From: Gemmatimonadales bacterium
GTDB lineage: Bacteria > Gemmatimonadota > Glassbacteria > GWA2-58-10
DNA: 64,000 nucleotides
Assembly: GCA_024278175.1 (NCBI GenBank)
Contig: JAJRTS010000111.1
Coordinates: forward strand, 1-64,000
Reading direction: 5' to 3'
The first letter of the stretch is position 1; each line of letters begins with the position of its first letter. The notes beneath the pieces were generated by a model. That model worked only from the letters and a program-made list of their open reading frames with translations. It was not told the origin of the DNA and did not search any database. The translations under genes and the position numbers were made by a program. This document shows positions 2,949 to 60,260 of this stretch, one piece after another.

Positions 2949-5900
2949 ATGTTCAAAGAATATTCAAAAAGCCTCAAGCTTCCGGAACTTGAAAAGGAAA
3001 TTATCTCTTTCTGGGAACAGAACAAGGTTTTTCTGGAAAGCATTGAACGCAACCAGTACCGTGAGAAATTCGTCTTCTACGAGGGACCGCCCACGGCCAA
3101 CGGCCGGCCGGGCATCCATCATGTCATCAGCAGGACGATCAAGGACCTCGTTTGCCGCTATTACACCATGCTTGGCTACCATGTTCCGCGCAAGGCCGGT
3201 TGGGACACTCATGGCCTGCCCGTGGAAATCGAGGTCGAGAAACAGTTGCAGATCAGCGGCAGACAACAGATCGAGAACTACGGGGTAGAGAAGTTCAACA
3301 AGCTCTGCCGGGAAAGCGTGTTCAAATACCTCGGGGACTGGCAGGAGCTGACCCGCAGGATGGGCTACTGGCTGGACTACGAGAATCCCTATATCACTTT
3401 CGAGCGCGACTACATCGAAACGGTCTGGTGGCTGTTGAAACAGATGTGGGACAAGGGGCTGCTCTACAAGGGCGCCAAGATTCTCCCCTACTGCCCCCGC
3501 TGCGGCACCGGCCTGAGCAGCCACGAGGTCTCACTGGGCTACAAGGAAGTCGAGGACCCCAGCGTATTCGTGCGGATGAAACTGGCCGATGAGCCGGAAA
3601 CGAGCTTCCTGGTCTGGACCACCACACCCTGGACACTGATCTCCAACGTGGCGCTGGCTGTGGGCGCGGACCACACCTACGCCCGCGTCAGTTACGACGG
3701 GGAAACCCTGATCATGGCCGAGGCCCTGGTGGGCAAGGTGCTGGGCGAAGAGGCCCGGGTGTTGGAAACTTTCCCCGGCCGCGAGCTGGAGCGCAAACGC
3801 TACACCCGCCTGTTCGACTTCGTCAGCCTGCCCGAGGACAAGGACGCGTTCTTTGTCACCGTGGCCGATTTTGTCAGCCTGGAGGACGGCACGGGCATAG
3901 TGCATGTCGCCCCGGCGTTCGGCGCCGACGACTACGCGCTCGCGCGCCGCTACGAGTTGCCGCTGCTGCAGCCTGTCGATGAGAGCGGCAAGTTCACCGC
4001 CGAGGTCACTCCCTGGGCCGGGAAATTCGTCAAGGACGCCGATCACGAGATAGCCGCCAACCTCAAGGAGCGCGGCCTGCTCTATCTGCAGGAAAGCTAC
4101 AAGCACAACTACCCGTTCTGCTGGCGCTGCTCAACCCCCCTGCTCTATTACGCCCGCGACAGTTGGTTTATCAGCACCAGCAAGTTTCGCCAGGAACTGC
4201 TGCGCAACAACTCGTCGGTGAACTGGTTTCCCGCCGAAGTGGGCCGGCGACGGTTCGCCCAGTGGCTGGAAAACAACGTGGACTGGGCGCTGAGCCGCGA
4301 CCGTTACTGGGGTACGCCCCTGCCAATCTGGATCTGCCGGAGCTGCGGCCATCAGCACGCGGTGGGCAGCGTGGCCGAACTGCGCCGGATGGGCCGCGAC
4401 GTTGCCGAGGATATCGACCTTCACAAACCGTACGTGGACGATGTGATCCTTGATTGCCCGCAGTGCAAGGGGGAGATGAGCAGAGTCTCCCAGGTGATCG
4501 ACTGCTGGTTCGATTCGGGCGCGATGCCGTTCGCACAGCTCCATTACCCGTTTGAGAACGAGGACGAGTTCGGCGAAAAATTTCCCTGCCATTTTATCTG
4601 CGAGGGGCTGGACCAGACCCGCGGCTGGTTCTACAGCCTGCTGGCGATCAGTACGCTGATCACCGGTAAGGCCCCCTACCGCAACGTGCTGGTCAACGAC
4701 CTGATCCTGGACAAGAGCGGCCAGAAGATGAGCAAGTCGGTGGGCAACACGGTCGATCCGTGGGACGTGTTCGACGCCCACGGGGCCGACCCGCTGCGCT
4801 GGTACCTGATCTCCGTAAGCCAGCCCTGGCTGCCCAAGCGTTTCGATATCGACGGCGTGGCGGAGGTGGTCCGCAAGTTTTTCGACACCCTGCTCAACGT
4901 CTATTCCTTTTTCGCCATCTATGCCAATATCGACAAGTTCGTACCCGGTGAGGATGGTGTCGGCGAGGTGGACCTTACCGACGAGCTGGATAGCTGGGTG
5001 ATCAGCAGGCTCAATTCCACTATCGCCCAGGTTCGCAAGTCGCTCGACGGCTACGATCTGACCCGCGCCGCACGCACGATCCAGCAGTTCGTGATCGATG
5101 ACGTGAGCAACTGGTACGTGAGGCGCAACCGCCGGCGCTTCTGGCAGAGCGGCGAAAGCAGTGACAAACGTTCCGCGTTCACCACCCTCTGGGAAGTGTT
5201 GACAAAGGTGAGCAGGATGATGGCCCCGATCGCGCCGTTCGTCAGCGAATCCCTCTATTGCCGCCTGGTTGCCGATCAGCTTCCCGGCCAGCCGCCCAGC
5301 GTGCACCTGAGCAGTTTTCCCGAGGCCCAGAACGGTCGGATCGACCTGGAACTGGAGCGCAGAATGGAAGCCGCCCAGCAACTGGTGATCCTCGGCCGCG
5401 CCGCCCGCAACCGCAGCAGGATCAAGGTCCGTCAACCGCTGCGGCGGATGCTGGTGCAGACCCCCAAAGATTGCACCGCCGCCGATCTGGATTCGATTTG
5501 CAGGATAGTACGCGAGGAGATCAATGTTAAGGAAATCCAACCCGTAAAAAACGCGTACGACTACGTTACCCTGTCGTTAAAACTTGATTTCAAGATGGCG
5601 GGCCCTAAATTCGGTCCCAGGGTCAGGGAGATCGCCGCCGCTCTGGACGCGCTCGGCCAGGATGAGGTCGGCAGGATGCACGGCCAGGGCCTGATCAAGC
5701 TGACTCTGGAGAGCGGCAGCGTTGAGCTCTCTCTGCGGGACGTGGAGGTTCGCACCGCCGACCGCGAGGGTTACGTGGTGGAAACCGGCAACGGCTACGG
5801 CGTTGTGCTCGACACGGCGCTGGACGAAAAACTGATCCGGGAGGGGATTGCCCGCGAACTCGTCAATAAGATTCAGAATATGCGCAAATCCGCTGGATTC

Positions 5901-9722: not shown

Positions 9723-9935
9723 TTTAAAAGCGTGTTGAAAAATACGAAAGTGTGGGCATTGAGGTTGTCAAGGGCAGTTTCCCGTGATGCTGCTTAAAGC
9801 CGGCGGGAGCAACGCAACAGCTTGGGAAAAAACAACTAACCGAATCAGTAAAAGAAACGGCCGTGCCTTGCCCTTGACAACCAGAGGAGAGAAATTTTTA
9901 TCATAGGGCGTTGAATGTTTTTAGTTCAACGCCCC
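9723..9935 (+). repeat. Dispersed structured repeat, copy A (upstream of mreB)
   Basis: First copy of the roughly 200-bp element. The left tail is TTTAAAAGCGTGTTGAA. The inverted arms are GGTTGTCAAGGGC (9763-9775) and GCCCTTGACAACC (9870-9882), with about 94 bases between. The terminal hairpin at 9907-9934 has arms GGGCGTTGAA and TTCAACGCCC. The right arm carries TTGACA (9874-9879), followed after 17-19 bases by TTTATC/TATCAT, so this copy may supply the mre promoter. The other copies are at 17694, 32680, 39083 (degenerate) and 55079. Confidence 0.8.
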
Positions 9936-10081
9936 CTCAGAATAGAGAGTGGCGAATAACCTGTTCACCTGCCGAGCAAGGGTACGACACTATTTCTTCG
10001 ACATTTATCATACTGGTCATACTGGCCGCGCTCGGGACGCTTGTCGCCGTGCTGGTGGCCCGCAATCGTAACTCGACTGCT

Positions 10082-11152
10082 ATGCCCGCCGCCGACCCGG
10101 CCAATGCAGACAAAGGAGGAACTATCAACTCCAGCGGTTCGTTTTTGACAAATGAGATCGCAATCGATCTGGGCACCGCCAACACACTGGTTTACATCAA
10201 AGGCAAAGGAATCGTACTCAACGAGCCCTCGGTGGTGGCGATCGACCGGGCCAGCGGCAAGGTGAAGGCAGTGGGGCTGGAGGCCAAGGCGATGTTGGGC
10301 CGCACCCCGGCCAGTATCACGGCGATTCGTCCGCTGAAAGACGGTGTGATCGCCGATTACGAAGTAACCGAGGAAATGCTGCGCTATTTTATCAAGGCCG
10401 TGCTCAAGAGCCGTTTCCTGCCTGTCAAACCCAGGGTGATTATCTGTGTACCCAGCGGAATCACCGAGGTGGAGCGCCGCGCCGTGCGCGACAGCGCCGA
10501 GAGCGCCGGGGCCAAGGAAGTCTATCTGGTGGAGGAACCGATGGCCGCGGCTATCGGCGTGGGCCTGCCGGTGGAAACACCCAGCGGCAACATGATTATC
10601 GATATCGGCGGCGGCACCACGGAAATTGCGGTGATCGCCCTGTCGGGTATTGTCAGCAACATCTCGATCCGTGTCGGCGGCGATGAGCTGGATGAGGCGA
10701 TCGGGCAGTTCCTCAAGAAAAACTACAACATCCTGATCGGCGACCAGACAGCAGAGCAGATCAAGATCAATATCGGCAGTGCCTACCCACTGGGCGACGA
10801 GAAGGAGATGGAAGTCAAGGGCCGCGATATAGTCTCCGGAATTCCCAAAACCGTGACAATTCATTCCAGCGAGGTCCGCGAATCCCTTCAGGAGCCGATC
10901 ATGGCGATTGTCGAGGCTACGCGCCAGGCCCTTGAGCAGACTCCGCCCGAGCTGGCCAGCGACATCGTGGACCGCGGAATCGTGATGACCGGCGGTGGTT
11001 CGCTGCTGCGCGGCCTGGACCAGTTGTTGCGCGAGGAGACCAATTTGCCGATCAACGTGGACGAGGAACCGCTGACCTGTGTCGTACGCGGTACGGGAAG
11101 GATACTGGACGACCCCAAGCGTTACTGGGTAGTGCTGAGCCAGAGCAAGTAG
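10082..11152 (+). CDS. mreB: Rod shape-determining actin homologue MreB
   Basis: Actin-fold ATPase that organises lateral wall synthesis with MreC, MreD, PBP2 and RodA. The phosphate-1 motif is [12 protein letters not shown], followed by [12 protein letters not shown], the phosphate-2 motif [13 protein letters not shown] and the adenosine motif [11 protein letters not shown]. The start is ambiguous. The conserved core begins at about 10151. The ATG used here (10082) has no ribosome-binding site. A strong AAAGGAGG at 10112-10119 sits just before an in-frame ATC (10124), which would give the usual 342-residue MreB. The frame stays open up to a TTG at 9911 and encodes a convincing hydrophobic segment ([18 protein letters not shown]) before the core. 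Either ATC is the start or this MreB carries an unusual membrane-spanning leader. Confidence 0.93.
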
Positions 11153-11275
11153 GCGTGCGCGGCGGGCAGGCAGCGGCTTTGACTTCACCGCGATGCGCCT
11201 GTCGCGGCCTGGACCATCACAGGGCCGTACGGGGTGTGCCACGTTAATGCAGTTTCATTCTGCCGTGCGAGCACG

Positions 11276-12136
11276 ATGTCCAGATTCTTCCTTTTCCTGT
11301 GGGAACACAGACAGAGCCTGTTGTTTCTGCTGCTGATTCTGCTTTCGCTGGCAGCGATTTCCCTGTCCGGTGAAAACCGGTTCAATCTCGCCCGTCAGAT
11401 CAACCGCACGCTGATCACTCCATTCCAGATGGTTGTTTCCAAGGCGGATTACTATCTCAGCCTGAAACAGGAAAACGAGCGCCTGCGCAAGAACAATTTC
11501 GTCCTCTCGCTGGAACTCTACCACCTGGAACAGGCCCGTCAGCAGAACGAACGGCTCAAGGCGCTGCTCGATTTCTCCCCCGCCACGCCGATCCACTTTA
11601 TCGCCAGCCGGGTTATCAGCGGCGGAATCGGCGAACGGGCCAACGTGTTCATTATCGACAAGGGTTCCCGCCACGGAATCCGGATCAACCTGCCCGTACT
11701 CGTTCCCGAGGGGCTGGTGGGCAAGATTATCGAAACCGATCCCGCCCGCAGCGTGGTACAGCTTTATACCCATCAGGACTTCCGCGTGAGCGCGATGCCC
11801 TCCGGCAAGACAGAGCGCGGCATTGCCGGCAGCGCCAGCGGCGGGCGGCTCTACCTGTTCAACATCCCCCTTCGCACCAGTATCACCCCCGGAGACTTGA
11901 TTGTCAGTTCCGGGATGGGCGGCATCTTCCCCAAGGGTATCCCTATCGGCGAGGTGGCCGATATTGAGCGTGAGAGGGAGATGGGTATCAAGCTGCGCGC
12001 CCGCCTGAACCCGTCGGTAAACCTCGATAAAATAAGCGAACTGTTCGTACTCGCGGACAGCGCGTTCGTATCGCCGGGAGCGGGGATCCTGTTCGAAACC
12101 GGTGATTCCCTGAACCTGCTCTGGAGCGACCAGTAA
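11276..12136 (+). CDS. mreC: Rod shape-determining protein MreC
   Basis: 286 residues. There is a short cytoplasmic N-terminus, one membrane segment (about 13-31, LLFLLLILLSLAAISL), a periplasmic coiled coil (about 58-95, LKQENERLRKNNF...) and the paired beta-barrel MreC domain (about 105-270). It is the periplasmic scaffold linking MreB to PBP2. The ATG at 11276 gives a normal N-terminus; an upstream ATG at 11234 would add 14 residues with no support. It overlaps the mreD start by one base (TAATG). Confidence 0.93.
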   Translation: MSRFFLFLWEHRQSLLFLLLILLSLAAISLSGENRFNLARQINRTLITPFQMVVSKADYYLSLKQENERLRKNNFVLSLELYHLEQARQQNERLKALLDFSPATPIHFIASRVISGGIGERANVFIIDKGSRHGIRINLPVLVPEGLVGKIIETDPARSVVQLYTHQDFRVSAMPSGKTERGIAGSASGGRLYLFNIPLRTSITPGDLIVSSGMGGIFPKGIPIGEVADIEREREMGIKLRARLNPSVNLDKISELFVLADSAFVSPGAGILFETGDSLNLLWSDQ

Positions 12137-12618
12137 TGTCGAACCTGCGCTTCATCCTGTTCCTGCTGACGCTCTTTTTCGTCCATCTTCTGTTCTATCA
12201 GTATATCTCGATGGGCGAGATTTTCCCCGACCTGTTCCTGGTGATGGTGGTTTATGCCGGGTTGATCTGGGGGCCGGAATGGGGTAGCCTGACCGGCTTT
12301 TTCGCCGGGATGGCCCAGGACAGTTTCAGTTTTACCTATTTTGGCCTTCACGCACTGGCCAAGGTGCTGGTGGGGTTTTCAATCGGCAAGGTACGGCATA
12401 GCTTTTTCAGCGGCAAACCCACGGTGCAGATCGCGATCATCCTGGCGGCCAAGATGGTCCACGACGCCGTGTTCTACGGGATCTATTTAGCCAGGACCGA
12501 CGAGAGTTTCTGGCGGCAGTTGCTGTTCGTCTCGGCCCCTGCCGCACTTTATACCGCCGTGCTGGGAGTAGCCCTGTTCTTCCTGTTCCGTATCCACCAG
12601 AAATCCAGGGGATGGTGA
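12136..12618 (+). CDS. mreD: Rod shape-determining protein MreD
   Basis: 160 residues with five or six predicted membrane segments. The N-terminal pattern FPDLFLVMVVYAGLIWGPEWG matches the MreD family, followed by GFFAGMAQDSF. It is an integral inner-membrane component of the elongasome. The one-base overlap with mreC implies coupled translation, and mrdA begins five bases after its stop. Confidence 0.9.
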   Translation: MSNLRFILFLLTLFFVHLLFYQYISMGEIFPDLFLVMVVYAGLIWGPEWGSLTGFFAGMAQDSFSFTYFGLHALAKVLVGFSIGKVRHSFFSGKPTVQIAIILAAKMVHDAVFYGIYLARTDESFWRQLLFVSAPAALYTAVLGVALFFLFRIHQKSRGW

Positions 12619-12622
12619 TCTG

Positions 12623-14440
12623 ATGCCACTACGGACCAGGCACGGCGAGGGCGTTTCCGGCAGGTTGCTCAAAGCGCGGATGGCCAAGGTGATCATTCTG
12701 ATCCCGTTCATCGTGCTGATCGCCATCTTTTTCCGCTACCAGGTACTGCATACCAGCGAATACACTCTGCACTCAGAGGAAAACCGCCTGCGAAGGATCG
12801 AGTTGCCCCCGCCGCGGGGACTGATCACCGACCGCAACGGCAAAGTGCTGGCCGAGAATATCCCGTCCTACTCGATAGAGCTTTATCCCCAGCCGCCGGA
12901 TTCGATGGAGATCGCTCTCGAACGCCTGGCTCCCCTGCTGAAACTCAGCGTGAGCGACCGGGAACAACTCCTGCAGAAATACAAGCTCCGCCGCTCAAGT
13001 CCGCTACGGGTCGCCTCGGATATCGACCAGAAAACCCTGGCCGTTGTAGAGGAACACCGCAGCACTTTCCCGGGAATCTATCTCCGCTCGGACATGAAGC
13101 GCAGTTACGTTTACGGCCCCGCCCTGGCCCACGTGCTGGGCTATGTGGGCGAGATCACCGATAGCGAGCTGGAAGACTCGGCCTACTCGGACCACACGAT
13201 GGGCAGTCTGATCGGGCGCAGCGGGATCGAGGCCCAGTACGAGCATCTTCTGCACGGTGTGCGCGGCGTGAAGTTCATCGAGGTGGACGCCCGTGGGCGT
13301 GAGCTGGGCCCGTTTCACGACAAGACTCCGGTGATGCCCACCCGCGGCAACGACCTTCGGCTCACTATCGACCTCCGCCTGCAAATGGCGATGCATGCGA
13401 TCATGGACACTATCGAGATCGGCGCGATGGTGGCCGTGGACCCGCGCACCGGCGGCGTGCTGGCGATGGTGAGCAAACCGGAATTCGACCCCAACCGGCT
13501 CAGCAGCGGAATTTCATCCAGCCAGTGGCGGCAGTTGCTGTTCCATCCCAACAAGCCGTTCCTCAACCGCGTGATCCAGGGAATCTATCCCCCCGGCTCC
13601 ACGTTCAAGGTTTTCACCACGCTGGTGGGCGCCGATCTGGGGCTGATCGGAGCGGACGCGCCCGGCCTGGAGGTTATCTGCCGCGGTGGCCTGCAGTACG
13701 GACGCCGGTTTTTCAAATGCTGGCAGGCAGGTGGCCACGGCAAGGTGGATTACCGCGACGCCATCGTGCGCTCCTGCGACACATTCTTCTACCAGCTCGG
13801 GATCAAGATCGGCCTCGAGAGGTTTTGCCGCTACGGCAAGGAGAGCGGCCTGCTGGAAAAAACCGGGGTAGACCTGCCCAACGAGGAAGCGGGCCTGTTC
13901 CCCGACGAGAACTGGTACAGCCGTAACTACGGGCGCGGCAACTGGGGTCCGGGCAACGTGCTCAACCTCTCGATCGGCCAGGGGGAAATAACCATGAGCC
14001 CGCTGCAACTGGCGATGATGTACTCGCCGATCTGCAACGGCGGCCGCCGCTACCGTCCCCACCTGCTGGAAACCGATCCCGAGACGCTCCGTCTGCCGGA
14101 CATCATGTTTTCCAGGGAACACCTGGAAATGCTGATCGGCCCGTTGACCGGAGTTGTCAACGACCCCGTTCACGGCACGGCCCGCGGCAGCCGCCTCTGG
14201 GGACAGAAGTTGAAGATGGCGGGCAAGACCGGCACATCCCAGAATCCCCACGGCGATGACCACGGGCTGTTTGTCGGCCTGTTCCCCGCCTCGGCGCCGG
14301 AGATTGTGGTTTCAATTGTGGTGGAGCACGGCCTGCACGGTTCCGCCACCGCCCGCCTGGTCAAGGACCTGATGTTGGCCTATCTGGAATTCAGGGGGCA
14401 GGAAACCGGTAACGAGGAATTCGCTATAATTGCTCACTGA
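12623..14440 (+). CDS. mrdA: Penicillin-binding protein 2 (elongasome transpeptidase)
   Basis: 605 residues. One membrane anchor (about 22-40) is followed by the pedestal domain with PPPRGLITDRNGKVLAENIP and a class B transpeptidase domain. The catalytic serine is in GSTFK (Ser about 326), the second motif is SCD (about 384) where many PBPs have SxN, and the KTGT motif is at about 535 (AGKTGTSQNP). It cross-links peptidoglycan during side-wall growth. It sits between mreD and rodA, its glycosyltransferase partner, as in the classical mre/mrd order. Confidence 0.95.
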   Translation: MPLRTRHGEGVSGRLLKARMAKVIILIPFIVLIAIFFRYQVLHTSEYTLHSEENRLRRIELPPPRGLITDRNGKVLAENIPSYSIELYPQPPDSMEIALERLAPLLKLSVSDREQLLQKYKLRRSSPLRVASDIDQKTLAVVEEHRSTFPGIYLRSDMKRSYVYGPALAHVLGYVGEITDSELEDSAYSDHTMGSLIGRSGIEAQYEHLLHGVRGVKFIEVDARGRELGPFHDKTPVMPTRGNDLRLTIDLRLQMAMHAIMDTIEIGAMVAVDPRTGGVLAMVSKPEFDPNRLSSGISSSQWRQLLFHPNKPFLNRVIQGIYPPGSTFKVFTTLVGADLGLIGADAPGLEVICRGGLQYGRRFFKCWQAGGHGKVDYRDAIVRSCDTFFYQLGIKIGLERFCRYGKESGLLEKTGVDLPNEEAGLFPDENWYSRNYGRGNWGPGNVLNLSIGQGEITMSPLQLAMMYSPICNGGRRYRPHLLETDPETLRLPDIMFSREHLEMLIGPLTGVVNDPVHGTARGSRLWGQKLKMAGKTGTSQNPHGDDHGLFVGLFPASAPEIVVSIVVEHGLHGSATARLVKDLMLAYLEFRGQETGNEEFAIIAH

Positions 14441-14459
14441 ACCTGCGAAGTAGCCAGCC

Positions 14460-15694
14460 ATGTGGATCAAGAGATACGACTGGGTGCTGATGAGCCTGGT
14501 GCTGCTGCTGACTTTCTACGGCGTGATGATGATTTACAGCGCCGACCAGATCCAGACAGTACGGACCAGCGGTGTGCTGCACTACCGCCGTCAGCTTATC
14601 TGGCTGGTAATCAGCGTGGCTGCGATGGTGGGAGTCAGCGCGTTCAGTACCCGCGTGGTGGAGATGCTGGCCTACGCGGTCTACGGGCTGATCGTGCTGG
14701 CGCTGGGTGCGCTGTTGCTTACCGGCCAGGGAGTCGAGCGCTGGGTGACCATCCCGGGCGCCGGGATCAACCTTCAACCGGCCGAGTGGGCCAAGTTGAC
14801 CACGATCCTGGCCTTAGCAAGCTATCTGGCGGGCCGCAAAAAGCAGATCGACTCGCTTAAGGACCTGGTGATCCCGGTGTTGATTGTGGGCCTGCCCGGC
14901 AGCCTGATCCTGCTTCAACCCGACCTTGGCACCTCGATAGTCTTTTTCTTTATCTTTTTCGGCATGCTCTACTGGGCCGGCCTGCCGCTGATCTACCTGT
15001 TCCTGATAGTCAGCCCGATAATCAGCTTTCTGCTGGCCCTGATCACCCACCTGGGCGAGATGCAATTCCCACTGTGGGGCGTGTTCATTATTTTTCTGTG
15101 TATCCTGATTTTCTACCGGCGGATTTACCTGATGGACGCGATCGTGTTCACCCTGGCCAATCTGCTGACCGGAATCATGACCTCGCCGTTGTGGAACTCG
15201 CTCAAGCCCTATCAGCAAAAACGCATTCTGGTTTTCTTTCAGCCGGAGCTGGATCCCCAGGGCAGTGGCTGGCAGATCATCCAGAGCAAGGTGGCGATCG
15301 GCAGCGGCGGACTGCTGGGCAAGGGCTATCTGTTGGGGACGCAAAAAAACCTGGCGTTTTGCCAGCCCAGCACACAGATTTCATTTTTCCGCTGGTGGGC
15401 GAGGAATTCGGGTTCGTGGGCGTGGCGGTGGCTCTGCTGTTGTTTTACTTTCTGCTCAGCCACATCCTGGAGCTGGCCCGGGTGTCCGGTAACAGTTTTT
15501 CCAGCCTGGCCGCGGCGGGAATAGCAAGTTTTCTCTTCGGCCATATCATCATCAACGTGGGCATGACAGTCGGCCTGATGCCGATCACGGGCCTGCCGTT
15601 GCCGCTGTTCAGCTACGGCGGTTCGTTTTTGATGACATGCTACATGGCGATCGGCATCCTGCATAGAATTTACATGGAACGGGGCAGCATTTGA
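14460..15694 (+). CDS. rodA: Peptidoglycan polymerase RodA, interrupted by a -1 frameshift
   Basis: SEDS-family glycosyltransferase with about ten membrane segments. The first frame runs from 14460 to 15524 and matches RodA up to GKGYLLGTQKNLAF; the remainder (PAQHTDFIFPLVGEEFG to the ERGSI end) is in the -1 frame ending at 15694. Joined, the product is about 411 residues, a normal RodA length. One T missing from the run 15357-15360 would explain the break and restores the family pattern GTQ-x5-LP-x2-HTDFIF. The break also lies beside A AAA AAC (15344-15350), a classical -1 slippery heptamer, followed at once by a CTGGC/GCCAG hairpin. It may be a sequencing or assembly error, a real mutation or programmed frameshifting. 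Confidence 0.9.
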
Positions 15695-53065: not shown

Positions 53066-54916
53066 TTAGCGGCCCGGCGCGGCGGCAGGCTGCTCGGCGG
53101 CCAGAGCGATGATATATCCGGCCAGCGCGCGGCGAAGCCTGCCGGCGGAAGAGGTGTCGCCAGAGGGCGGCGATCCCTCCGGCGCCAGCGAGTCAACATC
53201 CGCGAGGTTGAATCCCGGAGTGCGGATTGTCCGCAGAAACCGCAACGCTTCCCCGGCGGCCGCGCTGCCTGCGGTGGCGGAGTTGATCAGCCGGTTCAGA
53301 GTGCGAATGTAGCGCCGGTCCTCGATTCCCTCCCGTACGCCCTCCCAGGCCGGCGTGGGCAGAAACGTGTCGTCAAGTGTGCGGTAGCTCAGCATCCAGT
53401 CCATTCGCGGGGAATCGAAATCGTTCCAGGCGTGTCCGCCGCCGCTCCAGTTGTAGGCCCAGACAAACATCCCGTCACGGTGAGCGCGCCACGGGCCGAA
53501 CCCGATTCTCTCTCTGGCGGCCCCGGCCGAATCACGCTGGGTCAGGGCCGTGTAGCCCCAGACAGCGCCCCGGCGCATGGATTCATCGGGCCGCACGTCA
53601 TCGGCAACCAGCCACACGTTGACCAGTTCCGCCAGGTCTTCGACAATTGCCTCGTCCTTCCCGCCCAGTAACGGGCTGGCCAGGTTCGCCCGGTAGCCCA
53701 TCACGCGGTCCAGCGCCCGGCTTCGGCCACTGAACCAGTCCCGGCTGTCGTTCCAGTCCAGCGCCCTGTCGAGGATACCCCAGACAATCGCGGGCCAGCC
53801 TCTGCTTGCCGCGTGCTGGTTGATCGCCTGCACGCTCCTGGCGTAGAGCAGATCCCCCGCCCCCTCGCCCGTGGTATCCCCGGTCGCCGCCGCCAGCGAG
53901 GAGTCAAATTTCGCCTCGCCCGCTCCGGCGGCGAAAATTATCTGCGGCCCGTCGATTCCCGCCTCCGCCAGAGTACGCATGAACAGGTCTTCCAGCCGGA
54001 AATCAGGCCTGAGCGAGCCTTCCAGATAGCGCAGAGGCAACTGCCGGGGGTCGTACCAGCGGGCCACGGAACGGATACCGTGGGCGGCCAGATCGGCGCA
54101 GGCGTAACTGTCGAGCGGGCCGGGGATAAAGACGCCGAACGGAGGCAGGCCACGGCCGCTCAACATCGCTGGCAGGACCGTGAAAGAAATGGGCAGACGG
54201 TACGTGCCGCCCCAGTGCTCCAGCAGGACACTGCCGGTATACGCACCGGGGGCTAGATCGGAGGGCGTGTGGATCCTGACCCAGAAACGAATCGTGGTGT
54301 TGGGCGGGACCTTGAGAGTGCCGGTCGGCTCGCGCTCGCAGAACCGGTTGCCGGGAAATTTTGTCAGCGGCCAGATCCGCGAAGGGTGCCAGCGCCACTC
54401 GCGTGAGAAACTGCCCTTGCCCCAGCGCACCGGGAAATATTCCACTATCCCCAGTTCCACCGAGTCCGGCGGGATAAACGAATCGGAGGTAAGACTGACC
54501 AGCGCCCCGACGGTCAGCCGCAGGCCGGAAAGTTCGCGGCCGAGTGTCCTGATACAGAACGAAACCGGTTCCAACTCTCCGGGAGCGGCGAACGCTGTGG
54601 CCGCGGCATCTATCTCATGCCCGGCGGGCACGCTGACCGGATAGACCTGCGCTCCCCAGTGGCGCACGAACGGCACGTAACCCAGCTCCGCCCAGCGCGC
54701 AGCGGGTGCGGACATCTTCTCGCGCTCCCGGTAGGGTTTGTACTCGAACAAGCTCAGCTTCGCCTGCACGCCGCTCATCATCTGACGGTAAAAGGACACG
54801 GACCGGCTGTCTTGCGTGTACACAGCCTCCGGCTCCTGCGCGGTCAACAGCGCGGCCATCAGGATTCCCGCTAACAGCAGCATACCTGCAGTGTAAATAG
54901 ATTTGCCCACTGGCAA
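53066..54916 (-). CDS. DUF4091 protein, glycoside hydrolase 123-like, exported
   Basis: 616 residues. A signal peptide (about 8-26, YTAGMLLLAGILMAALLTA) is followed by an N-terminal beta-sandwich (about 70-220), a TIM-barrel-like middle and a C-terminal DUF4091 block. That block contains GMFVWAYNWSGGGHAW and TPAWEGVREGIEDRRYIRTL. DUF4091 proteins include glycoside hydrolases related to GH123. Acidic catalytic residues could not be fixed by eye. The next gene downstream is the transglutaminase gene, 76 bases away. Confidence 0.8.
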   Translation of the reverse strand: MPVGKSIYTAGMLLLAGILMAALLTAQEPEAVYTQDSRSVSFYRQMMSGVQAKLSLFEYKPYREREKMSAPAARWAELGYVPFVRHWGAQVYPVSVPAGHEIDAAATAFAAPGELEPVSFCIRTLGRELSGLRLTVGALVSLTSDSFIPPDSVELGIVEYFPVRWGKGSFSREWRWHPSRIWPLTKFPGNRFCEREPTGTLKVPPNTTIRFWVRIHTPSDLAPGAYTGSVLLEHWGGTYRLPISFTVLPAMLSGRGLPPFGVFIPGPLDSYACADLAAHGIRSVARWYDPRQLPLRYLEGSLRPDFRLEDLFMRTLAEAGIDGPQIIFAAGAGEAKFDSSLAAATGDTTGEGAGDLLYARSVQAINQHAASRGWPAIVWGILDRALDWNDSRDWFSGRSRALDRVMGYRANLASPLLGGKDEAIVEDLAELVNVWLVADDVRPDESMRRGAVWGYTALTQRDSAGAARERIGFGPWRAHRDGMFVWAYNWSGGGHAWNDFDSPRMDWMLSYRTLDDTFLPTPAWEGVREGIEDRRYIRTLNRLINSATAGSAAAGEALRFLRTIRTPGFNLADVDSLAPEGSPPSGDTSSAGRLRRALAGYIIALAAEQPAAAPGR

Positions 54917-58133: not shown

Positions 58134-60260
58134 ATGGCGGAAAAGAAAAACTCCAGGAAAAAAGCACCAGGCAAGAACAGCGGTTCCCGGCGTGGTAAGC
58201 AGGGAGGGTCTTCCAAGGGTCCCAAAATCGGTAACGTGTCTAAAAATATCGCGTTCTGGCTGTTGATCATCCTGCTGCCGATTACCATGTTCAACCTGCT
58301 CTCCCCGCAAAAGGAGACCATCCGCAAGATAAATTACTCCCAGTTCATGCAGTATGTCGAGCAGGGCCGCGTCCAGAGCGTGACTATCATGGAAAAGAAA
58401 ATCCTGGGCAAGCTCGAGGGCGTGGCGGTGCGCGGGGAGAAAGACGCGGAGGCGAGTAATTTCGAGACCTACATTCCGTTCGAGGACTCCGATTTGGTGC
58501 GGACGCTGGACAAGGCCGGGGTTGAGGTCACGGGTAAGCCCCCCACGGTCAACTGGATGACCCAACTGATGGGCTGGATCCCGTGGGTCCTGATCATTTT
58601 CATCTGGCTCTTTTTCATGCGCCAGCTCCAGGGCGGAGGAGGACGGGCGTTCAGTTTCGGCAAGAGCAAGGCCAAGCTCCTCTCGGCCGACAGGCCGAAA
58701 GTGACGTTCAAGGACGTGGCCGGCTGCGATGAGGCCAAGCAGGAACTGGAAGAGATTATCGACTTTCTCAAGGCCCCGCGTAAGTTCCAGAAGCTGGGCG
58801 GACGCCTGCCCAAGGGCGCGCTGCTGCTGGGGGCTCCCGGCACCGGTAAAACCCTGCTGGCCCGTGCCGTGGCCGGCGAGGCGGATGTGCCGTTTTACAG
58901 TATGAGCGGCTCGGATTTTGTCGAGATGTTTGTCGGCGTGGGAGCCAGCCGCGTACGTGATCTGTTCGAACAGGGCAAAAACAACGCACCCTGTATCATC
59001 TTCATCGACGAGATCGACGCGGTCGGACGCCATCGCGGTGCGGGCCTGGGCGGCGGGCACGATGAGCGCGAGCAGACACTCAACCAGTTGCTGGTGGAGA
59101 TGGACGGGTTCGAATCCAACGATGGCGTGATTCTGATCGCCGCCACCAACCGTCCCGACGTGCTCGATCCGGCGCTGCTGCGCCCCGGGCGTTTCGACCG
59201 CCAGATCGTGGTCGACCGCCCCGATGTACGCGGCCGCGAGGGAATCATCAAGGTTCACCTGAAGGATATTCCCGTGGACAGCGACGTGGACGTTTCCGCG
59301 CTGGCCAAGGGCACGCCCGGCCTTTCGGGAGCGGAGCTGGAGAGCATTGTCAACGAGGCCGCCCTGCTGGCCGCCCGGCGCAACCGTGAGAAAGTCACGA
59401 TGAAGGATTTCGAGGACGCCAAGGACAAGGTGATGATGGGCCAGGAGCGCAAGAGCATGGTGATCAGCGATGAGGAAAAACAGCAGATCGCTGTCCACGA
59501 GTCCGGCCATACGCTGGTTCAGCGGCTCACTCCCGGGGCCGACCCGGTGAACAAGGTCACGATCGTAGCCCGCGGGATGGCGCTCGGAGTTACCCAGTAC
59601 CTTCCCGAGCGGGACCGTCACCTCTATGGCAAGAAATGGTGCCAGAACAACCTGGTGGCTCTGCTGGGAGGTCGTTGCGCCGAACAATTGATTCTGGGCG
59701 AGATGACCACCGGCGCTGGCAACGATCTGGAGCGGGTTACCGACCTGGCGCGCAAGATGGTCTGCACCTGGGGGATGAGCGAGACGCTGGGCCCGCTGAC
59801 TTTCGGCAGAAAGGAAGAGCAGATATTTCTCGGCCGTGAGATCGCCCAGCACCAGGACTACAGCGAGGCCACTGCCCGCTTGATCGACAGTGAGGTGAAG
59901 AAACTGGTGGAGGAGGCGTATAACGATGCAATGCGGCTCCTGCGCGAGAACCGCAAAACATTGGAAAACCTGGCCAGCGCCCTGCTGGAGCGCGAGGTAC
60001 TGGATGCCGAACAGATCAACCTGGTTATCGCCGGAAAGAAGTTGCCGCCGGTAGATAATGGCAAACAGCCCGCTAAAAGCAAAACACGCTCGCGCAAAAG
60101 CAGCGCAAAGAAGACGCCAAAGGGTGCGGGTGGTCAGGCCGCCGGTCAGGATGATAAACCTTCGGCAAAGGCGGATGAGGCCGGCGGTGCCCGGCGGGGC
60201 GAAACTCCGGGTGCCGGACGGAGCGACGAAAAAGTGGAAGATAATCAGGACCGGCAATGA
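58134..60260 (+). CDS. ftsH: ATP-dependent zinc metalloprotease FtsH
   Basis: 708 residues from the ATG at 58134 (GAGGAAAGG upstream); the ATG at 58098 would add 12 residues. The basic N-terminus (SRRGKQGG) precedes membrane helix 1 (about 38-56), a periplasmic domain and helix 2 (about 147-165). The AAA domain has Walker A GAPGTGKT and the pore motif [17 protein letters not shown]; the SRH is present. The zinc site is HESGH (HExxH). The C-terminus has a long Lys/Ser/Gly-rich disordered tail (about 640-708). It degrades membrane and regulatory proteins; elsewhere its targets include LpxC, whose fused homologue is encoded at 26.4 kb. Confidence 0.96.

Follow-up and report, generated by a model that had tools for sequence, protein, structure and literature searches.

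The rodA gene in the window (the whole 64,000-nucleotide stretch of DNA that was analysed) is divided between two reading frames, and the division very probably results from an indel, not from programmed frameshifting. One base is missing relative to the rodA of a sister genome of the same genus (G001); the relatives examined have an unbroken gene without the slippery heptamer seen here; and both parts of the gene are under purifying selection. The host would be an uncultured relative of Candidatus Glassbacteria, in which a single base is absent from a short T run of an otherwise apparently intact, single-copy rodA. The cause of the loss would be technical or very recent. Most likely it is an assembly or read error, or the assembler took up the allele of a minor strain; inactivation by a very recent mutation is less likely. 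The heptamer and the small hairpin beside it would be by-products of the chance encoding of Gln-Lys-Asn and Leu-Ala-Phe-Leu-Pro-Ala.

Contig C102, which contains the window, belongs to a 4.18 Mb genome (113 contigs; completeness 97.13%, contamination 2.75%). The window has the gene order mreB-mreC-mreD-PBP2-rodA, with ORFs at 9911-15694, followed by a glycosyltransferase gene. The MreB, MreC, MreD and PBP2 products adjoining rodA each score above the cut-off of at least one model of their own. The MreB ORF (window 9911-11152) has a TTG start, and about 77 residues precede the MreB domain; translation probably begins at a more internal codon.

rodA begins in frame 0 at 14460, and RodA homology carries on in the -1 frame up to 15694 (Table 1), as the sequence-only reading had claimed. 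Frame 0 itself is open from 14460 to 15524 and encodes 354 amino acids. Pfam PF01098 matches both frames; the best frame-0 stretch covers profile positions 3-193 and the -1 frame covers 245-354. The NCBIfam rodA model, TIGR02210, is matched by frame 0 at profile positions 1-249 (211 bits) and by the -1 frame at 249-356 (132.4 bits). Together the two frames cover the whole profile; each piece alone stays below the 336.7-bit cut-off. Amino acid identity to the same-genus rodA is 86.7% over the N-terminal 300 codons and 89.1% over the C-terminal 110 codons. The locus resembles RodA/MrdB, a SEDS peptidoglycan glycosyltransferase (TIGR02210, PF01098; solved structures such as 6bas, 6pl6 and 8tj3 were found by sequence), in its end-to-end profile match via two frames, its LPxQHTDF motif and its mreB-mreC-mreD-PBP2-rodA order. 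It differs in that the gene is split by the loss of one base a little upstream of the motif's Asp codon.

Table 1. Features of the rodA break (window coordinates)
Feature	Position	Strand	Source
rodA N-terminal 300 codons, frame 0, last residues GTQKNLAF	14460..15359	+	TIGR02210, PF01098
A7 run, overlapping the heptamer	15343..15349	+	
A_AAA_AAC heptamer, in phase with frame 0 (CAA AAA AAC)	15344..15350	+	
Perfect 5-bp inverted repeat CTGGC/GCCAG, arms 15351-15355 and 15361-15365, zero spacer	15351..15365	+	
T4 run, where the base absent relative to the same-genus rodA is placed	15357..15360	+	
Frame-0 ORF tail, out of frame (CQPSTQISF... in place of LPAQHTDF...)	15360..15524	+	Translation
rodA C-terminal 110 codons and stop, -1 frame, from PAQHTDF	15362..15694	+	TIGR02210
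Asp codon of LPAQHTDF, after the break; matches E. coli RodA Asp262 by motif	15377..15379	+	Residue roles, PMC10449877 (partial text)

The frame change is located at the T run. The same-genus rodA aligns to the window DNA over 1236 columns, 1005 of them identical, with one 1-nt gap that falls right after TTT (15357-15359). Frame 0 encodes GTQKNLAF as far as the T run; beyond it, LPAQHTDF is encoded in the -1 frame. This places the change at the T run, not at the heptamer upstream. The alternative of an indel in A7 is ruled out because frame 0 stays in register with the sister gene through CTG GCG TTT, up to 15359.

The title of the sequence-only reading suggested programmed slippage, and its text set against this an indel at the T run. 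The second part is borne out by the lone gap and by the unbroken genes of relatives; the first is not supported, as the heptamer is not conserved and the junction it would produce is off. Programmed -1 ribosomal frameshifting at A_AAA_AAC would yield full-length RodA, and truncated RodA where no shift takes place. Its attractions are local: the heptamer has the phase needed for -1 slippage and a CTGGC-GTTTT-GCCAG repeat follows directly, both of which had been read correctly from the sequence, and the -1 frame is conserved. Ahead of the break there is a single other in-phase X_XXY_YYZ site, CCCGGGC at 14753. However, a slip at the heptamer would yield KKPGVLPAQHTDF, in which KPGV replaces NLAF just ahead of the active-site motif. 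The family genomes have GTQKNLAFLPAQHTDF (G001, G002, G004, G005) or GTQKKLEFLPAQHTDF (G003) at the junction, that is, KNLAF or KKLEF where the shifted product has KKPGV.

The hairpin adds little to the case for slippage. It had already been objected that it has no spacer, and the repeat does start at 15351, the base after the heptamer; the hairpin would thus be expected to sit inside the ribosome already at the moment of slippage. On its own it has a predicted energy of -6.7 kcal/mol, but it is not part of the minimum-energy fold of 15341-15420. That 80-nt stretch, to which the shuffle comparison applies (for further stretches downstream of the heptamer, folds alone were computed), has z = +0.24, and 112 of 200 shuffles were equally or more stable. 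Of 9136 sampled positions, 806 (8.8%) have a perfect 5-bp stem with a loop of 3-8 that starts 0-12 nt away. Some bacterial frameshift sites use an upstream stimulator resembling a Shine-Dalgarno sequence; here, by eye, only a GGGG at 15335-15338 lies 5' of the heptamer.

The hairpin is ordinary; the heptamer is infrequent, yet not the only one of its kind. The 134 conserved ORFs on two contigs of the genome contain 14 in-phase A_AAA_AAN sites, two of these rows being rodA itself and its -1 frame. In-phase AAAAAAC is present in three other conserved ORFs, in which no break was reported. From codon use, the CAA AAA AAC spelling of Gln-Lys-Asn has a probability of about 4%; CAA is used for Gln 158 times and CAG 1010 times. 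Counting both strands, the window holds 27 copies of AAAAAAC against 5.94 expected from dinucleotide shuffles, a number reached in 0 of 100 shuffles; 20 of the 27 are on the + strand.

The comparison of rodA in sister genomes which had been proposed as a check was carried out, and close relatives have an unbroken frame without the heptamer, an outcome that had been named in advance as evidence against slippage. The family search yielded six genomes including the window's own, and all six have a match to the C-terminal part of rodA. In each of the other five, rodA runs unbroken through 412-425 codons. At the heptamer site they read CAG AAG AAC, CAG AAA AAT, CAG AAA AAC or CAA AAG AAG; A_AAA_AAC is found in none of the five.

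The wider survey gives the same picture. The phylum sample has rodA matches in 296 of 298 genomes and contributed 30 loci, among the matches listed; the named-genome scan contributed from the best 80 of 443 relatives. The junction motif was searched for in 122 loci (L006-L127), which include the window's own and in some cases several from one genome. It is present in 109; the 13 without it are 10 lower-scoring rows, mostly paralogues, together with L061, L096 and L101. Some of the distant loci may be SEDS proteins other than RodA. There are 92 distinct junction DNAs, and the window's is the only one with A6C, A7 or T6C at the junction; none of the other 91 has any of these, the heptamer included. 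Directly ahead of the LPxQHTDF-type motif, 105 of the 108 other loci have F and three have Y, whereas the -1 frame of the window has V there. In four loci (L087, L092, L094 and that of the window) the motif is preceded by fewer than 180 open codons. The available DNA of L087 and of L094 starts shortly before the match. L092 has 31 open codons before the motif although its DNA continues 5' of the match at 3001; this relative may carry a rodA break of its own.

Known systems point the same way. In E. coli, according to the available part of PMC5009743, A_AAA_AAC is much less shift-prone than A_AAA_AAG, the heptamer of dnaX-type -1 frameshifting. The window shares with the dnaX type, as described there, an in-phase A-rich heptamer followed by an inverted repeat; it differs in that the second codon is Asn and not Lys, there is no spacer, the site is not conserved and the unshifted product has no evident use. 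The same portion of that source does not mention rodA as a case of programmed frameshifting, the text matches being to the author name Rodamilans. An in-phase slippery site is thus found at rodA, but conservation, a spaced 3' structure and a junction that matches the family are not. Programmed slippage is rejected on conservation, junction residues and fold, and is hardly credible.

The remainder of the genome bears on what kind of indel this is. A break test compared 168 conserved ORFs of the sister genome (43,215 aligned amino acids) with two contigs (217,725 bases); its reach is limited to breaks that split an ORF into two tblastn pieces. Of the five rows flagged, that of rodA alone stands as a true break. 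The row for a PASTA protein is two adjacent genes, the PBP2 and ROK rows are due to N gaps in the sister assembly, and the fifth overlaps rodA itself. A looser first pass gave 10 rows in one direction and 9 in the other, inspected singly only in part; five of its ORFs have no Pfam match and are taken as shadow ORFs. Since no other such break is present in the sample, the assembly is not generally error-ridden, and the sampled part is full neither of errors nor of pseudogenes.

Three observations from this comparison concern the assemblies themselves. In G001, short N gaps break mrdA (PBP2; C3 near 140842-140854) and a ROK-family gene (C1 near 54529-54547). An iron-sulphur protein gene (Fer2_3, Fer4) is in one frame in the window's genome (G000:C59 115370-116473); in G001:C1, at about 58332-59416, it appears in two frames, with no N flagged in the gap.

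Selection on the two parts of rodA was estimated against the same-genus gene. dN/dS is 0.112 over 300 codons before the break and 0.052 over 110 codons after it, a value which rules out a long-standing pseudogene; both parts are under purifying selection. No clear decay is seen over those 110 codons relative to the sister, as would equally be expected of an error. After the break, the dN of the window is slightly above that of the sister to all four outgroups (0.133 v. 0.126, 0.149 v. 0.147, 0.164 v. 0.141 and, for outgroup G005, 0.119 v. 0.088); before the break, it is higher for one of the four. Polarised residue changes number three in the window lineage and one in the sister after the break, where 8 of 12 are unresolved, and ten and seven before it. 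Some relaxation of selection after the break is possible, but the excess is slight and not decisive, and the numbers are too few to show it.

The frame-0 product was expected to lack the C-terminal helices of RodA. This is right as far as it goes; the Asp that matches a catalytic residue is missing as well. According to the accessible portion of PMC10449877, Asp262 has a catalytic role in E. coli RodA and Pro257, too, is required for activity, and the spacing of Pro257, Glu258, His260, Thr261 and Asp262 given there fits LPxQHTDF, which identifies the corresponding Asp of the window by motif (Table 1). The frame-0 product leaves the frame before LPAQHTDF. It therefore has no residue to match Asp262, and should be inactive. 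In a sequence search of solved structures, RodA chains align to it through GTQ..L.F before the break, with weak similarity beyond.

RodA is required for rod-shaped growth in model bacteria. The genome has a single rodA match, and no second rodA was found in it. A SEDS paralogue on contig C59 is ruled out as one: it scores best with the ftsW model, at 340.0 bits, over the cut-off of 337.5. The ORFs beside it we take to be murD and murF, from their translations.

A genuine and very recent rodA null mutation in the sampled population, with no rescue, is a minority possibility. The conserved ORFs tested yielded no true break besides that of rodA, which suggests that base errors are infrequent here, and the slight excess of changes in the window lineage after the break leans the same way. 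Against it stand the lack of a second rodA in the genome and the intact elongation genes that adjoin the break. The lone loss of a base in a presumably needed gene, without clear decay, fits an error or a minor-strain allele best, or else a very recent mutation. Within the indel reading, a sequence error or minor-strain allele is given somewhat better than even chances, and a real recent mutation roughly half that weight. It should be noted that a T4 run is short for a homopolymer error.

There is a slim chance that a genuine recent deletion is partly rescued by slippage of the ribosome or of RNA polymerase at the A7 run, with some full-length RodA made that carries a KKPGV junction. Purifying selection downstream of the break agrees with this, as does the nearness of the T run, which begins 7 nt after the last base of the heptamer and for which the chance value is low. 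Among the 134 ORFs, 0.12% of coding positions lie, as the break does, no more than 10 nt 3' of A_AAA_AAN, and 0.89% no more than 10 nt 3' of any X_XXY_YYZ; the 10-nt distance was chosen after the case was seen, and the case itself was selected for the coincidence of heptamer and break. These percentages, with the codon spelling of about 4%, leave slight room for rescue at the A7 run.

In Blochmannia and Buchnera, frameshifted genes may be corrected by transcriptional slippage at homopolymers, as reported in the available part of PMC3017870. The window resembles these poly(A)/poly(T) cases in that a conserved gene has a single-base break and no clear decay. In the cases described there, however, the indel lies inside the homopolymer itself; here the gap is at T4 and not at A7, the tract is 7 bases long and codon use is not AT-biased. 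Runs of 9 As or Ts are those named for bacterial transcription slippage in the portion of PMC5009743 available. As the indel is outside the 7-base tract, rescue would also entail four mis-sense residues ahead of the active-site motif.

An indel at the T run, technical or very recent, remains the preferred explanation. Were rescue nevertheless to operate, improbable as it is, the population would carry the deletion and live on low-level slippage at the A7 run or heptamer; little RodA would be made, with KKPGV, and a chance site would make the break tolerable, so that a slippery sequence shelters a break in a cell-shape enzyme. As a cautionary case, the rodA break helps to guard lists of bacterial programmed frameshifts from a false entry. 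Phase-correct heptamers with a nearby hairpin arise by chance, and alignment to sister genomes is the direct test.
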